Shown here in pieces: positions 44,568-59,781 of a stretch of DNA of 62,676 bases. The notes beneath the pieces were generated by a model. That model was not told where the DNA came from and did not search any database. It worked only from the letters and a program-made list of their open reading frames with translations. The DNA lies in IMG/VR virus record IMGVR_UViG_3300023170_000025, positions 1 through 62,676 of that record; one strand, written 5' to 3'. A program made the translations under genes and the position numbers. This stretch comes from a virus. The first letter of the stretch is position 1; every line of letters starts with the position of its first letter.

Positions 44568-44861
44568 ATGAACTATGTAGAAAAAATTATTCAGTGGCAT
44601 CATGATAGAAATCTTATTGAAGGTTCTACAGATAAAGACCAATATATGAAACTTATTCAAGAAATGGGTGAGCTATCGGACAGTATCTGTAAAAATAAAG
44701 ACATTAGAGACGATTGTGGTGATATTATGGTTGTTCTAATTAATATTATGGAAAGAAACAATATAAGTTTTGAAGAATGTCTTGAAGTAGCCTATAATGA
44801 TATTAAAGACCGTAAAGGTAGAATGGTGGATGGTGTGTTTATAAAGGAAGGTGATAATTAA
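44568..44861 (+). CDS. mazG: MazG-like nucleotide pyrophosphohydrolase
   Basis: The 97-residue protein has the MazG/all-alpha NTPase pattern: QEMGELSDSI in the metal-binding ExxE position, then DDCGDIMVVLINIMERNNIS. Such phage enzymes hydrolyse nucleoside triphosphates and have been proposed to alter (p)ppGpp or dNTP pools. It shares its last base with the next gene. No ribosome site is seen, consistent with a leaderless message. Confidence 0.8.
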   Translation: MNYVEKIIQWHHDRNLIEGSTDKDQYMKLIQEMGELSDSICKNKDIRDDCGDIMVVLINIMERNNISFEECLEVAYNDIKDRKGRMVDGVFIKEGDN

Positions 44862-45796
44862 TGCAACCAAAATACCCAATCTATATAATTTCTAAGGGTA
44901 GAGCGGACTCACGTCTTACTTCAAAAACTCTTGAAGAAATGAGAGTACCATACAGAATTGTTATTGAAGATAGTGAATATGATGATTATGCTAAAGGTAT
45001 ATCACCCGAAAAAATTATAACTCTGCCTACAGATTTTAGAGAAAATCCAAAGTATGCAATTCCAGATAACAAAGGCAGAATTGGCGGTTCTATTCCTGCA
45101 CGTAACTTTGTTTGGGAACATTCTATTAATGAAGGTCATAAGCGGCATTGGATTATGGATGATAATATTAAACATTTCTATAGATTACATAAGAATAGAA
45201 AAACTAAAGTAACCTCTGGAACTATTATTAGATTATGTGAAGATTTTACCGACCGATATACTAATGTAAAAATGTCTGGTATGAATTATCAATATTTTGC
45301 CCCAGCTTCTCAGAAAAAAAAGCCATATACACTTAATACCAGAATTTATTCTTGTATTCTATTATCTAACGATTTGAAACATCGCTGGCGTGGTAAATAC
45401 AATGAAGATACGGTTCTAAGTCTTGATATTCTAAAAGATGATTGGTGTACAATTTTATTTAATGCATTCTTATGTGGTAAAATTACAACTCTTGTTATGG
45501 GCGGTGGTAATACTGATAATGTGTATGTTGACGGAGACAATCGTTTACAGTTTGCACAAGCACTTGTAGAACAACATCCAGATCTGGTTAAAGTTGTACA
45601 TAGATATAATAGATGGCATCACCATGTAGATTATAGTCCGTTTAAAAAGAATAAGCTTATCTATCGTGATGACTATGTTATTAAAGGTGGTGTAAACGAA
45701 CACGGTATGAAATTACATAAATTAACTATGGAACAATATAAAAAAGCAACTACAGAATTTGGAAACGCGGAGAACCCCTACTATGAGCAAACCTAA
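44861..45796 (+). CDS. TAGT/GREB1-like glycosyltransferase
   Basis: The 311-residue protein begins YPIYIISKGRADSRLTSKTL and has a GGSIPARNFVWEHS segment followed by HRHWIMDDNIKHF-type residues (KRHWIMDDN). This is the pattern of the TET-associated glycosyltransferase family of phages, whose DD acts as the metal/sugar-nucleotide site. Members are thought to glycosylate hydroxylated bases in DNA. No TET/JBP oxygenase is visible in this window, so the acceptor is uncertain. Confidence 0.72.
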   Translation: MQPKYPIYIISKGRADSRLTSKTLEEMRVPYRIVIEDSEYDDYAKGISPEKIITLPTDFRENPKYAIPDNKGRIGGSIPARNFVWEHSINEGHKRHWIMDDNIKHFYRLHKNRKTKVTSGTIIRLCEDFTDRYTNVKMSGMNYQYFAPASQKKKPYTLNTRIYSCILLSNDLKHRWRGKYNEDTVLSLDILKDDWCTILFNAFLCGKITTLVMGGGNTDNVYVDGDNRLQFAQALVEQHPDLVKVVHRYNRWHHHVDYSPFKKNKLIYRDDYVIKGGVNEHGMKLHKLTMEQYKKATTEFGNAENPYYEQT

Positions 45797-46064
45797 AGGA
45801 GCTAACCTATTTGTATTAGACGGACAAGAAGATGATCTTGATCCTATGGGTTGGGATGATATGCCAGAATTTGAACAAGAGAATAGAGAGGATTATGCTG
45901 CTCTTGTTATTAGATTTAGGACAGAGGAAGATTTAAAAGAATTTGCACAAAAGATTGGACAACCTAATCTTACTAAAAAATCACGTGGGACATTTTATCC
46001 TGCGGTAGAATTTAATGAGGCAAATCTTTTGCGTTGGATGGATGAAGAACAAATACCGAGCTGA
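45783..46064 (+). CDS. acidic protein next to the TAGT gene, unknown function
   Basis: The protein has 93 residues from ATG 45783, preceded by GCGGAGAACC; a longer in-frame start at 45759 lies deeper in the TAGT gene and is less likely. The second half, YAALVIRFRTEEDLKEFAQK then FYPAVEFNEANLLRW, looks like a small alpha/beta domain. I associate this type with marine phage modification genes but cannot name it. Confidence 0.6.
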   Translation: MSKPKGANLFVLDGQEDDLDPMGWDDMPEFEQENREDYAALVIRFRTEEDLKEFAQKIGQPNLTKKSRGTFYPAVEFNEANLLRWMDEEQIPS

Positions 46065-46066
46065 TT

Positions 46067-47005
46067 ATGCAAGTTTCTGCAACATTCTTTAAATCTATTT
46101 ATGATAATAAGACTCATAAGAATATGAGTTTTTCTGATTTTTCACAGTTTGAAAAATTTTTATATAAGTTGTCAGAAAGAAAGTTAAAGGATAAAAAAGA
46201 TGCTCAACTTATATCTCCAGCTTCATATATTGAAGATACAACCAGAGCAAATAAAAATGTGATAGACTGGGCTGGCTGGGCAGCTATGGATGTAGATGAT
46301 CACGAGTTTAAAGGGGATTTAAAAAATGAGCTTATTCGTATATATGGTAAGTACTATTTCGTTTGCTATAGTACTGCTAGCAGTCGAGAAAGTTTACCAA
46401 AGTTTCGTCTGGTCTTCCCACTTACAAAAAGAGTTAGATCAGATAATATCAGACATTTTTGGTACGCACTCAACACACAACTTAAGGCTATCGGCGATGC
46501 GCAAACTAAAGATTTATCACGAATGTATTATATCCCTGGTTCGTACTCTGGCGCTTTCAACTTTATTTTTACTAACACTGGTGGTTCTTATATAGATCCA
46601 GAAGAACTGATGAGTGCTCATCCTTATCAGGAAAAGAAAACTGGAACATTCTTAGATAGATTACCAACAGAAATGCAAAAATCCATTATAGAATATCGTA
46701 AGAATAAAATGGAAAATAATAATGTCAATTGGACTAATTATGAAGATTGCCCATTTGTAAATAAGAATCTTATCAGAGATTTTAAAAATATAGCATATGT
46801 AGATAATACCGGAAGATATGCTATGGTTTATAAAATAATGGTTTCTATAGCAAGTAATGCAATTAAGAAACAATATCCTATAAATACGTTTGAAATTGTA
46901 GAACTAATTAAACAACTTGATGCAGATACAGCAAAGAGATATGAAAATAGACCTCTTAATATAGAAGCTGATCGTGCTATAGAATATGCGTATAGAAATA
47001 TTTAA
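46067..47005 (+). CDS. possible primase-polymerase-like (AEP) protein
   Basis: The protein has 312 residues. IDWAGWAAMDVDDHEF supplies a DxD-type metal motif near 75, FVCYSTASSR a possible second motif, and KFRLVFPLT a third strand. DLSRMYYIPG near 155 is common in phage and mobile-element archaeo-eukaryotic primases. I infer an AEP-like fold. The C-terminal third is helical. The normal T4 primase (gp61) is not in this window. Alternatively this is a conserved protein of unknown function. Confidence 0.45.
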   Translation: MQVSATFFKSIYDNKTHKNMSFSDFSQFEKFLYKLSERKLKDKKDAQLISPASYIEDTTRANKNVIDWAGWAAMDVDDHEFKGDLKNELIRIYGKYYFVCYSTASSRESLPKFRLVFPLTKRVRSDNIRHFWYALNTQLKAIGDAQTKDLSRMYYIPGSYSGAFNFIFTNTGGSYIDPEELMSAHPYQEKKTGTFLDRLPTEMQKSIIEYRKNKMENNNVNWTNYEDCPFVNKNLIRDFKNIAYVDNTGRYAMVYKIMVSIASNAIKKQYPINTFEIVELIKQLDADTAKRYENRPLNIEADRAIEYAYRNI

Positions 47006-49126: not shown

Positions 49127-50083
49127 ATGTCACATATTACAGTAACTGGCGGCGCTGGTTTTATCGGTTATCATCTTATTCAAAAATTAGTAGACGAAGG
49201 TCATACGGTTTCGGCATTTGATAACTTTAATGATTATTATGATGTTTCTTTAAAAGAAGATAGAGCAAATAATTTAAAAAATCTTGGTGTTGAAGTAACA
49301 CGTCTTGATCTAAAAGAAAAAGCACATTTAAAATTTTTTCTTGCTTCTACAAAACCTGATGTTGTTATTCACTTAGCTGCATACGCAGGTGTTCGTCATT
49401 CATTAGAAAATCCTCAAAAATATATTGATAATAATATCACTGGATCACAAAATTTAATAGAAGCTTGTATAGAAAATAATATTGAAAATGTGGTATATGC
49501 ATCTACATCATGTACCATGGCTGGAAATCCATTACCATGGAATGAAGATGAAAAAACTGGTTATCAACTAAACCCATACGGTTTTACTAAATCCACCAAC
49601 GAATGCCAATTTATTTCAAGTAAAATTCCTAAAACCACCGGTCTTCGTTTCTTTACTGTTTATGGTCCTTGGGGCAGACCTGATATGGCTTTATTTGATT
49701 TTACAAAAAATATTATTGCTGGCAATGAAATTGAATTATTTAATTATGGTGATATGATTCGTGACTTCACTTATATAGATGACATTGTAAGTGGTATTAT
49801 TATTGTTGTTAATCAAACATTATCTGAAAATAATGAATTTAATGAAATATATAATATCGGTTATGGTGAACAAGTAAAATTGGTTGACTTTGTTGATAAT
49901 ATTGAAAAACAATTAGATCGTAAAGCTAAACGTAAACTTGTACCAAAACATCCGGCAGATACTCAAGCAACTTGGTCTGATACAACTAAACTACAAAAAC
50001 TCGGATATAAACCTACTACACCAATTGAAGTTGGTGTAGAAAAATTTGTTTCCTGGTATAAACTATATTATGGAGTAAACTAA
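49127..50083 (+). CDS. NAD-dependent UDP-glucuronate 4-epimerase-like protein
   Basis: The 318-residue extended SDR has the NAD-binding motif GGAGFIGYHLIQKL, then DNFNDYYDVSLKEDR, typical of UDP-glucuronate epimerases. VYASTSCTMAGN with Ser/Thr and PYGFTKSTNE (the YxxxK pair) form the active site. It would interconvert UDP-glucuronate and UDP-galacturonate. The dehydrogenase downstream can supply UDP-glucuronate. GAAGGAGAAA precedes the ATG. Confidence 0.82.
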   Translation: MSHITVTGGAGFIGYHLIQKLVDEGHTVSAFDNFNDYYDVSLKEDRANNLKNLGVEVTRLDLKEKAHLKFFLASTKPDVVIHLAAYAGVRHSLENPQKYIDNNITGSQNLIEACIENNIENVVYASTSCTMAGNPLPWNEDEKTGYQLNPYGFTKSTNECQFISSKIPKTTGLRFFTVYGPWGRPDMALFDFTKNIIAGNEIELFNYGDMIRDFTYIDDIVSGIIIVVNQTLSENNEFNEIYNIGYGEQVKLVDFVDNIEKQLDRKAKRKLVPKHPADTQATWSDTTKLQKLGYKPTTPIEVGVEKFVSWYKLYYGVN

Positions 50084-50085
50084 TA

Positions 50086-50226
50086 ATGGATAGCGTAGAA
50101 AAACTTTACAAAAATGTTGCACTATATTATAATATAAGTGTAGAAGAATTATTGGATCGACTCACTAAAAACGGAGAACCTCTAATTCATAATTATTATA
50201 AGGAAGTGTATCCAAATGGGTTCTAA
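50086..50226 (+). CDS. 46-residue small protein before the UDP-glucose dehydrogenase
   Basis: MDSVEKLYKNVALYYNISVE starts a 46-residue ORF, then LLDRLTKNGEPLIHNYYK. It begins 3 bases after the epimerase and overlaps the next gene by 11. A promoter lies inside it, so it may simply be coding DNA shared with regulation. No family is recognised. Confidence 0.4.
   Translation: MDSVEKLYKNVALYYNISVEELLDRLTKNGEPLIHNYYKEVYPNGF
50105..50133 (+). promoter_or_regulatory. sigma70-like promoter inside the 46-residue ORF
   Basis: TTTACA at 50105-50110 and TATAAT at 50128-50133 have 17-base spacing. It would give a message for the dehydrogenase at 50216. Confidence 0.6.
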
Positions 50227-51055
50227 ACTAAGAATTGCTATTGTCGGTCATGGTTTTGTAGGAAAAGCCATTGATCATGGGTTTAATGACTATAACTGCG
50301 ATAAAATAATTATTGATCCAAAATATGGAAATAGTATTGATAATATTAAATCACTAGTAACAGATGTAGCTTTTGTTGCTGTTCCTACACCTATGGGAAA
50401 GAATGGAGAAATTGATTCATCTATTGTTGTTGAAACAGTAAAGAAACTTAAACAAAGAAGAACTGGTATTATTGTAATCAAATCTACAGTAACTCCTGAT
50501 ATTATTAAGAGTCTTACTAATGGTTCTGGTTCAAGTACAAGAGTAGTTTACAATCCAGAATTTTTAACAGAGATAAATGCTAATTCTGATTTTATAAATC
50601 CTGATATGCATGTATTTGGAGGTCACAAAGAAACCACTCAAAGATTGGAAGAAATATATAGAGAGTATAGTTTATGTAAACCATGTCCAGTTTTTCATAT
50701 GTCCGCTACGGAAGCAAGCTTTGTAAAATATGGACTTAATTGTTTTCTTGCTACAAAAGTTTTATGGTTTAATCAGTTCTATGATGTAATAGAAAAGTTT
50801 GGTGGTAATTTCGGTCACATTGTAAATGCTATTGGAACAGATCCTAGAATAGGAACATCCCACACCAGAGCACCAGGGTTTGATGGCAAAAGAGGGTTTG
50901 GAGGAGCTTGTTTCCCAAAAGATACAGCAGCATTTAATAATTTTTCAAATAAAGAATTTACGGTATTAAATGAAGCAATTAAAGCAAACAATGAATATAG
51001 AAAAGAATACGAAAAAGATTCAAGAGAATTGGAACAAAACGTAAGCTATGCTTGA
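50216..51055 (+). CDS. UDP-glucose/GDP-mannose dehydrogenase-family protein (short)
   Basis: The protein has 279 residues against roughly 390-450 for typical family members. The N-terminal Rossmann motif IAIVGHGFVGKAI, the AFVAVPTPMG strand and the catalytic GFGGACFPKDTAAF with its cysteine are present. The C-terminal UDP-binding domain is largely missing. It would oxidise UDP-glucose to UDP-glucuronate or a related sugar nucleotide. The following epimerase-type chemistry is encoded just upstream. The shortening could alter oligomer or donor choice. Confidence 0.82.
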   Translation: MGSKLRIAIVGHGFVGKAIDHGFNDYNCDKIIIDPKYGNSIDNIKSLVTDVAFVAVPTPMGKNGEIDSSIVVETVKKLKQRRTGIIVIKSTVTPDIIKSLTNGSGSSTRVVYNPEFLTEINANSDFINPDMHVFGGHKETTQRLEEIYREYSLCKPCPVFHMSATEASFVKYGLNCFLATKVLWFNQFYDVIEKFGGNFGHIVNAIGTDPRIGTSHTRAPGFDGKRGFGGACFPKDTAAFNNFSNKEFTVLNEAIKANNEYRKEYEKDSRELEQNVSYA

Positions 51056-58741: not shown

Positions 58742-58933
58742 ATGAAACAAGAAATAATTAAATTTAAAAGTACAAATTATTATCGAAATAAAAAAAGAAA
58801 TGAACTTGTACGAAAAAGATTAAAAATAAAATACCAGAAAAGGGCAGGCACTTATCTTCTGGATCCTATGAATAAGAAAGAAGATAAAAACACACTTGAA
58901 TTTAATATTGATTCTGATTATATTATGATGTAA
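58742..58933 (+). CDS. small basic protein
   Basis: The 63-residue protein begins KQEIIKFKSTNYYRNKKRNE and is strongly basic over its first two thirds. It starts directly after the previous stop. Function is unknown. It closes the operon before the tmRNA. Confidence 0.45.
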   Translation: MKQEIIKFKSTNYYRNKKRNELVRKRLKIKYQKRAGTYLLDPMNKKEDKNTLEFNIDSDYIMM

Positions 58934-58973
58934 CATATTTACTACAATAAAAAATGATTAATAAATCTTATAG

Positions 58974-59002
58974 TTATTAATCATCATATAATACTATATA
59001 AT
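58974..59002 (+). promoter_or_regulatory. sigma70-like promoter for the tmRNA
   Basis: TATAAT at 58997-59002 and TTATTA at 58974-58979 are 17 bases apart. A second TATAAT lies at 58987-58992 without a good -35. Transcription would begin near 59009. Confidence 0.5.
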
Positions 59003-59056
59003 CTGTAGACGTTATAAAGACTATATGGACCTGGGGGCGGCACCCAGCAGCTCCAC

Positions 59057-59146
59057 CATAAACACTTGATAGAGGACGCTCGAAAATTCTGGGAAGCAGA
59101 TAGGGAAGTAGCTACCTGATTCTGTGGAGAAATTCAAGTGTTTATG
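59057..59146 (+). repeat. 13-bp inverted repeat joining the tmRNA pieces
   Basis: CATAAACACTTGA (59057-59069) and TCAAGTGTTTATG (59134-59146) are perfect complements. They stack onto the acceptor stem in the precursor and bring the two cleavage points together, as in permuted tmRNA precursors. Confidence 0.9.
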
Positions 59147-59195
59147 ATGGGGCTGAAATAGGATCGACATGTATTCTAGTTTACAAAATACAAAT

Positions 59196-59240
59196 GCAAA
59201 CGATAACTTTGCACCATCTGGTTACGCACTAGCTGCATAA
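59196..59240 (+). other. tmRNA tag reading frame
   Basis: GCA AAC GAT AAC TTT and nine further codons ending GCT GCA TAA encode ANDNFAPSGYALAA. The ALAA end fits ClpXP/ClpAP recognition. A leading alanine would come from the charged tmRNA. Confidence 0.92.
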
Positions 59241-59318
59241 CACAGGGGGTTGGCCACTTACCTAGCAACAGAAATAGTGGCACATTAATTTTAAAAATTC
59301 ATTAAGGGAATAAAACAA

Positions 59319-59699
59319 ATGAAAATCGCAGCACTCACAGTAGCAGCAACAATTGCAGCAACATCAGTATCAGCAATGGACCTTGGTTCAACAGGTCTTT
59401 CACTTAACACAGAAGTAGACGCATCATGGGATCTTGATGCTGATACGAATAACCTTCTCGTTACTCTTGAGCCAGAGTTGGGTTACAGCATTGTTGGTGT
59501 GAGCCTTACGGCTGGTATGGATCTTAATGTTTATCAGAATGAAGAATTTGTTCTTGGTGATCAGTTTGACGCTCTTTCAATTGACTTTGGTGCGTCTTAT
59601 CAAATTATGGAAGGCCTTTCCGCTTATGGTGAAACAACCTGGGACGTAGAAGCTAGTGAACTCGAAGCATCAAAAGTTGGTGTTACTTTTTCATTCTAA
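59319..59699 (+). CDS. exported outer-membrane beta-barrel-like protein
   Basis: The 126-residue protein has a signal peptide (KIAALTVAATIAATSVSAM; cleavage near residue 19). The mature part shows alternating hydrophobic strands and ends VGVTFSF with the terminal Phe typical of outer-membrane barrels. At about 107 mature residues only a small barrel is possible. Codons are more C/G-rich than nearby genes. No terminator separates it from the tmRNA, and the ribosome site is AAGGGAATAAA. Function is unknown; envelope modification is inference. Confidence 0.65.
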   Translation: MKIAALTVAATIAATSVSAMDLGSTGLSLNTEVDASWDLDADTNNLLVTLEPELGYSIVGVSLTAGMDLNVYQNEEFVLGDQFDALSIDFGASYQIMEGLSAYGETTWDVEASELEASKVGVTFSF

Positions 59700-59754: not shown

Positions 59755-59781
59755 GAGGGGCCACGGTTAGCCCCTCTTTTT
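59755..59781 (+). terminator. terminator-like hairpin
   Basis: The 7-bp stem GAGGGGC/GCCCCTC (59755-59761, 59770-59776) with an 8-base loop is followed by TTTTT. It can end the barrel-gene transcript, or act as an attenuator for the late promoter just upstream. Confidence 0.75.

Follow-up and report, generated by a model that had tools for sequence, protein, structure and literature searches.

Two-piece tmRNAs encoded by phages have been described before. According to the accessible portions of one study, phage Melnitz carries a two-piece tmRNA, permuted tmRNA occurs in 17 of 47 Melnitz-like contigs, and ARAGORN suggested 53 two-piece forms among 133 unique phage tmRNA structures (PMC9004378). 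A further paper, as excerpted, introduced the Rfam model RF04321, counts 79 bacteriophage sequences in the tmRNA database, and describes a single permuted tmRNA, nominally archaeal, whose intervening sequence contains a tRNA gene (PMC11915505). The need for pseudoknot 1 (PK1) has been judged from engineered E. coli mutants, with mixed results in the available parts of two reports (PMC3968760, PMC4236655): tagging required PK1 in one study (PMC3968760), which counts against the explanation we favour below, while either a hairpin (PMC3968760) or a single strand of RNA (PMC4236655) could take the place of PK1, which speaks for it. In a set of 274 tmRNAs, helix 4 of PK1 is missing from Oenococcus oeni and from a partial plastid sequence; a table in the same source, in the part available, marks PK1 as absent in mitochondria (PMC1168896).

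A permuted tmRNA gene in a T4-like phage record

The window, that is, the whole stretch of DNA analysed here, corresponds to one entire IMG/VR virus record, which measures 62,676 bases and is listed as linear. PHROGs matches include large terminase, portal, scaffold, tail sheath, tail tube and major head protein (T4-type), DNA polymerase, clamp, clamp-loader parts, DnaB-like helicase, a DNA helicase, UvsX-like recombinase, UvsY-like mediator, SbcC-like and SbcD-like subunits, late sigma factor, translation repressor, and Hsp20. This gene set is T4-like, and the record is a fragment of a T4-like phage. Three other genes matched the PHROGs families HMC glucosyltransferase (44861-45796), nucleotide-sugar epimerase (49127-50083), and UDP-glucose dehydrogenase (50216-51055), which suggests that DNA or some other target may be modified with sugars. 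By head protein, the closest phage records are Phage C48C1 (67%), which has no RF04321 match, and Melnitz and HTVC008M (both 62%). The tmRNA is patchy among head-protein relatives, being present in 7 of 27 records searched, three of which (L012, L064, L122) were included because they bear a tmRNA; L012 and L064 belong to the virus population of the window (100% identity over 13.8 kb and 99.97% over 12.4 kb, respectively).

A phage-encoded, permuted two-piece tmRNA had been proposed at this locus from the letters of the DNA (the sequence-only reading), with an Rfam alpha_tmRNA search as the check. That model (RF01849) matches at 84.6 bits (cut-off 50, E 1.8e-21, 58964-59284), as does RF04321 (tmRNA_permuted) at 77.5 bits (cut-off 47, E 3.9e-13, 59001-59240), both in an IMG/VR virus record with phage structural and replication genes. 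The gene is thus confirmed as real, and the proposal was right in kind but not new, since phage-borne two-piece tmRNA as such is already published in the accessible text of PMC9004378. The features are as follows.

59004-59281, plus strand: circularly permuted tmRNA gene (Rfam and direct reading of the sequence)
59004-59010, plus strand: acceptor-piece strand of helix P2b, TGTAGAC (7 of 7 pairs with 59179-59185)
59018-59027, plus strand: acceptor-piece strand of helix P2a, AGACTATATG (co-fold with 59168-59177: nine pairs, one mismatch at 59021/59174)
59028-59058, plus strand: acceptor half, with T-arm, acceptor strand CAGCTCC, A73, and encoded CCA (RF01849/RF04321; covariation)
59059-59148, plus strand: intervening segment of 90 nt, predicted to be excised (hairpin fold)
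59149-59168, plus strand: 5′ end of the coding piece, acceptor strand GGGGCTG and D-arm-like AAATAGGATCGAC (Rfam alignment)
59168-59185, plus strand: P2a strand (59168-59177), an unpaired A, and P2b strand GTTTACA (59179-59185) (co-fold and pair counts)
59186-59195, plus strand: 10-nt linker directly after P2b, too short for PK1 (D-arm to resume codon, 27 nt)
59196-59240, plus strand: tag frame ANDNFAPSGYALAA (59196-59237) and stop TAA (59238-59240) (read directly)
59247-59281, plus strand: pseudoknot 2 (PK2), stems chosen by eye, then checked; stem 1, GGGT 59247-59250 with ACCT 59260-59263; stem 2, GCCACT 59253-59258 with AGTGGC 59276-59281

The acceptor half (59028-59058) precedes the coding half (59149-59281) with the 90-nt spacer between, i.e., in permuted order. 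Read directly, T-stem strands CTGGG (59031-59035) and CCCAG (59043-59047) enclose the T-loop GGCGGCA (59036-59042), and are followed by CAGCTCC (59048-59054), A73 (59055), and CCA (59056-59058); CAGCTCC and GGGGCTG (59149-59155) make a 7-bp acceptor stem with G3-U70 among its pairs. The tag frame carries the resume codon, GCA, and a stop. A perfect 13-bp inverted repeat (arms 59057-59069 and 59134-59146) consists of the spacer ends plus the CA of CCA, and 59048-59155 folds as a single long hairpin (-42 kcal/mol, z -5.9) whose stability was equalled by 0 of 200 shuffles. The T-loop, ACCA end, GGGGCTG coding start, perfect repeat, and tag named in the sequence-only reading are all present. The start that it gave, 59009, is within the P2b strand (59004-59010), and the mature acceptor piece is likely to start ~5 nt before that position.

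The tmRNA gene is preceded by a gene for a cell-wall hydrolase (57579), a DUF3310 gene (58111), and two small ORFs. On its downstream side, at 59319, is a small gene that matches PF24653 (cyanophage outer-membrane-like) below threshold, at 19.9 bits against a cut-off of 27. After this OMP-like gene stands a terminator-like hairpin with a T-run (59755-59776); terminator-like sites numbered 3 in the window scan against 0.6 in shuffles. A DUF3310 gene is also found 5′ of the tmRNA, within ~2 kb, in 11 of the 11 relatives with sufficient upstream sequence (L003, L008, L034, L039, L051, L056, L059, L061, L081, L111, L121); L014 begins at its tmRNA and is uninformative on this point. Where UvsX is on the contig piece (L003, L034, L039, L051, L081), it is 77-83% identical to that of the window.

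A linker without pseudoknot 1

The window tmRNA has 27 nt between the end of its D-arm (GGATCGAC) and the resume codon; 17 of these lie in P2 and 10 are single-stranded. Because P2a, P2b, and the 10-nt strand use up this linker, PK1 is missing from the structure as read from the sequence, while PK2 is kept. The sequence-only reading had called the gene the alphaproteobacterial design; the permuted two-piece organization with its Rfam matches bears this out, but the usual alphaproteobacterial layout does not hold, PK1 being absent. PK1 is typical in published two-piece descriptions and lies outside the RF04321 model. Among the matches listed, linkers of the 96 distinct viral genes with a parsed tag measured 60-74 nt in 59 and at most 30 nt in 11, window included; these 96 come from 103 distinct genes, the tag parsers having missed or mis-set some.

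When ten distinct PK1-less sequences were aligned, with L081 set off by one base in P2b, the coding strand ran through P2a, a short loop, and P2b, with 10-11 nt left. P2b forms in 9 of 10 co-folds, L014 preferring different pairs. Standard pairs make up 66 of 70 in P2b, compared with 24-30 when the register is slid by 1-2 nt. In all 10 sequences the two PK2 stems, chosen by eye, are present and cross each other, and both strands show changes. A pattern scan for the linker only matched 105 viral contigs; with the window added, the tag starts 26-28 nt after the D-arm in 106 of 106, the acceptor half lies upstream in 103, and 59 distinct sequences have the acceptor. Across 53 distinct sequences, 342 of 371 P2b pairs are standard (500 shuffles: mean 316, maximum 328), with 29 of 371 cells non-pairing and the positional anchor absent in 6 of 59 sequences. 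With P2b partners swapped between genes, 533 of 630 (85%) still pair, a count made with the strand of L056 and L059 mis-set; much of P2b is therefore shared sequence, and the covariation excess is moderate.

The literature searched, as far as its accessible text goes, holds no description of a PK1-less phage tmRNA class, which is no proof of absence, and the architecture would thus appear to be a new variant relative to that literature. ARAGORN reported neither tRNA nor tmRNA in the window and found 0 of 11 PK1-less loci (L012, from the window's virus, counted in), against 13 of 19 other viral tmRNA loci. It does find some short-linker loci (L084, 37 nt), and the short linker is a likely, though not the sole, cause of the misses. 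By cmscan, RF04321 was above cut-off in 9 of 9 PK1-less loci. Since ARAGORN missed the window and all 11 PK1-less loci tested, surveys based on it, e.g., in PMC9004378, may undercount such genes. With blastn, the window tmRNA had no similar DNA among the phage records, and the L081 tmRNA matched nine phage records, RF04321 being present in 9 of 9.

Retention and possible role of the gene

Conservation was assessed with a pattern scan of viral contigs that left four paired positions open and required one T-loop form, and which is no census. Among the matches listed (98 distinct viral genes), both of the open T-stem positions hold a standard pair in every gene (98 of 98), and the acceptor pairs 5-68 and 6-67 are each standard in 95 of 98 (shuffle means 39.6 and 75.0, respectively). 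GGGG and CTCCACCA were demanded by the pattern and the parser, and G3-U70 is no independent count in these genes. In the tag, pS was 0.386 and pN 0.011 over six sequences (the window and five relatives with near-identical tags), a comparison whose 15 pairs are not independent and which left out L008, L059, L081, and L039, with other tags. Tags do vary: 4 of the 10 distinct PK1-less sequences first studied carry others. From these comparisons, the tmRNA looks like a gene retained for long under selection on both RNA and tag.

As an indirect comparison with the SAR11 tags named in the sequence-only reading, genome_contigs, a collection of 84,980 species with a single genome each and contigs of at least 3,000 bases, was scanned for the tag pattern ANDNFAP(S/T)G(F/Y)ALA, which occurred on one contig. 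This contig, L122 (NHBR02000136.1), belongs to a MAG named Muricauda sp. TMED12 and holds that MAG's only RF04321 match; its polymerase, clamp, clamp-loader, and repressor genes are related to those of the window, its tmRNA linker measures 59 nt, and it appears to be T4-like phage DNA binned within a bacterial MAG. As the sole contig with the pattern is phage-like, the tag does not seem to have been copied from a chromosome in that collection, where MAGs often lack such genes and an exact pattern is strict.

Among the matches listed, 55 of 93 distinct viral tmRNAs have the TATAAATA box, the T4 late box, at a distance of 20-70 nt before GGAC, and 0 of 93 have it at 100-150 nt. A TTGACA-like hexamer (5 or 6 of 6) stands 16-18 nt further upstream in 42 of the 55, against 2% at control positions. 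The resulting layout, TTGACA-N17-TATAAATA, in which sigma-70 and T4 late signals appear to overlap, is found in 42 of the 93 distinct genes among these matches, the window excepted. Upstream of the window tmRNA the box is absent, with TATATAAT at 58995-59002 instead, which counts against the explanation favoured below. The closest promoter-like matches, with ends at 58924 and 58929, stop ~75 nt short of P2b, and such matches occur in the window scan at chance frequency (8 against 5.9 in shuffles). A T4 late promoter on this tmRNA is unsupported in the window, although common in relatives. Over the whole window, TATAAATA occurs 13 times on the plus strand and twice on the minus strand (simulated sequence, 3-15 per strand), the strand skew being more telling than the number.

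We consider it highly probable that this locus of a T4-like phage encodes a functional two-piece tmRNA, circularly permuted and belonging to a reduced type in which PK1 has been lost; gene order, both Rfam matches, a tRNA-like domain with G3-U70, P2b covariation, PK2, tag frame, and conservation are observed. From these features we infer its processing, charging, use of SmpB, tagging, and ClpXP-mediated degradation. A single precursor would fold into the long hairpin, host RNase P would release the 5′ end of the coding piece, and host 3′ nucleases would trim to CCA, the spacer being thrown away and the two pieces held together via the acceptor stem and P2. Host alanyl-tRNA synthetase would charge the tmRNA via G3-U70, and host SmpB and EF-Tu would deliver it to ribosomes stalled on broken mRNA, which would resume at GCA and append the tag as a degradation signal for host ClpXP. 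P2b beside the 10-nt strand might take over the spacing job of PK1, and the likely gain would be extra ribosome rescue in infection. An SmpB gene was found in 0 of 8 phage records (the window and seven others, two of the seven being of one virus population with the window), and the sole match in a search over nine records was a bacterial MAG; the tmRNA must therefore rely on the SmpB of the host, which counts against this explanation. The roles suggested in the sequence-only reading, namely ribosome recycling during host RNA cleavage, tagging of host proteins, and feeding of ClpXP, would fit the ALAA end, and similar functions were proposed by the Melnitz authors in the accessible text (PMC9004378).

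Alternatively, the gene might be a replacement tmRNA escaping nucleases that disable the host tmRNA, i.e., a counter-defence part rather than a general boost. The altered linker, together with a tag pattern on no bacterial chromosome in the collection scanned, lends this slight support, but a nuclease or defence link was sought solely through the annotation of window ORFs, and we regard it as unlikely. The missing PK1 might also reduce tagging, as would suit a competitor that takes SmpB or stalled ribosomes from the host tmRNA and blunts trans-translation, as proposed for the tag-less RNA of mycobacteriophage DS6A; the accessible portions of PMC4131195 and PMC11915505 have a DS6A-like RNA inhibiting tmRNA. 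An inhibitor, however, could do without a tag, whereas here the tag frame is retained, an LAA end is found in 58 of 73 distinct viral tags among the matches listed, and PK2 is kept as well, making a competitor very improbable. Least credible of all is a captured host ssrA gene or attachment-site remnant, passively kept and functionless: capture via a prophage is considered in the accessible text of PMC9004378, but tag changes are mainly synonymous, helix changes compensate, the neighbourhood is common to relatives with UvsX 77-83% identical, 59 distinct genes carry both halves, and the PHROGs scan, which took in 50 of the window's 128 mechanical ORFs of at least 60 aa, revealed no integrase.

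Spacer frames and relation to known systems

Small protein frames occur in the tmRNA spacers of L003 (8744-8935), L056, L121, L273, L267, L284, L261, L306, L225, L074, L015, L057, L007, L122, and L209, and in several a purine-rich stretch precedes the start. DUF6356 (PF19883, 43-46 bits, cut-off 24.4) was matched in the spacers of L003, L056, and L273, and the L121 spacer protein is identical to that of L056, giving four loci in total. Comparing L003 with L056 and L273, pS was 0.55 and 0.62 and pN 0.08, with 7, 6, and 19 differences by codon position in the L003 comparison, and the two wrong frames had no synonymous bias (pS 0.12-0.14, pN 0.15-0.16). Five other pairs (L015/L057, L007/L122, L267/L284, L261/L306, L225/L074) gave pS 0.51-0.69 and pN 0.10-0.24, unlike starts having been trimmed in L267/L284 and L122. 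Synonymous changes thus prevail in six spacer-frame pairs, with one further pair weak (L261/L301: pS 0.14, pN 0.07); the identical frames of L076, L077, and L116 are uninformative on selection. Among spacers of at least 60 nt, 31 of 62 have an ATG frame of at least 25 codons (100 shuffles: mean 19.1, maximum 26), a count that takes in close relatives. The Melnitz spacer has a 54-codon frame, unannotated in its record, whose length was reached by 0 of 300 shuffles. L051 and L061 have tmRNAs nearly identical to that of L003 with a spacer of 5 nt, against 223 nt in L003, which means a quicker turnover for the insert than for the tmRNA. In the window spacer there is no ATG-started frame of at least 25 codons, and a nested gene there was rejected as a candidate, its 17-codon TTG-started frame not being told apart from chance.

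A literature search on genes within tmRNA spacers found none, and the spacer-nested genes in the window's kin are the most unusual lead here; if true, they would represent a rare arrangement of one gene inside another that depends on excision of RNA. On balance, we lean slightly towards a widespread group of T4-like phages with a minimal natural tmRNA, in which P2 runs straight into the message with no PK1, and in some of whose members the removed spacer serves as a slot for a small-protein gene, one gene giving a split rescue RNA and a separate mini-mRNA. Being natural and under selection, a PK1-less class would test the need for PK1 directly and would point to a smaller working design.

Of the described systems, Melnitz (a Methylophilales phage, MZ577097, RF04321 at 46013-46345) is likewise a T4-like marine phage with a permuted two-piece alpha-type tmRNA, with tag ANDNYVPVDYALAA. 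Its linker measures 62 nt compared with 27 nt in the window, a glutamine riboswitch match lies just downstream whereas the window has none at Rfam cut-offs, and its tmRNA is near a late-transcription coactivator gene, while that of the window stands between the DUF3310 and OMP-like genes. The Pelagibacter phages Mosig and HTVC008M are T4-like and, as in the window, have a permuted tmRNA above the RF04321 cut-off, but the gene neighbours of both differ from those of the window. HTVC008M has a 55-nt linker and the tag ANFNEYALAA, and its tmRNA (KC465899.1 145161-145370), above the Rfam cut-off, is missing from the record's feature table. The Mosig tmRNA is annotated as SsrA (MT647606.1 111467-111805); our parser read the tag ANSYAFLNGEDNFALAA with a linker of 34 nt, and ARAGORN a later-starting tag, GEDNFALAA, which would put the linker at ~58 nt.

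Phages MD18, DSS3_MAL1, RcXuper, RcRudolph, RcSimone-Hastad, and Cp1R7A-A1 also share a permuted tmRNA with RF04321 above cut-off, as did 9 of 9 phage records searched, these six included; linkers read by the parser are 62-69 nt in 7 of the 9 (RpoS-V10 and DSS3P8 unparsed) against 27 nt in the window. With the alphaproteobacterial two-piece tmRNA (RF01849), the window gene has in common its gene order, the tRNA-like domain, a GGCGG-type T-loop, the PK2 region, and a tag start that agrees with the model consensus. According to the available part of PMC3985003, such tmRNAs typically have PK1 and PK2, whereas the window tmRNA is without PK1. Finally, the DS6A-type RNA, tRNA-like only, has no tag frame, whereas in the window the tag is present and conserved.
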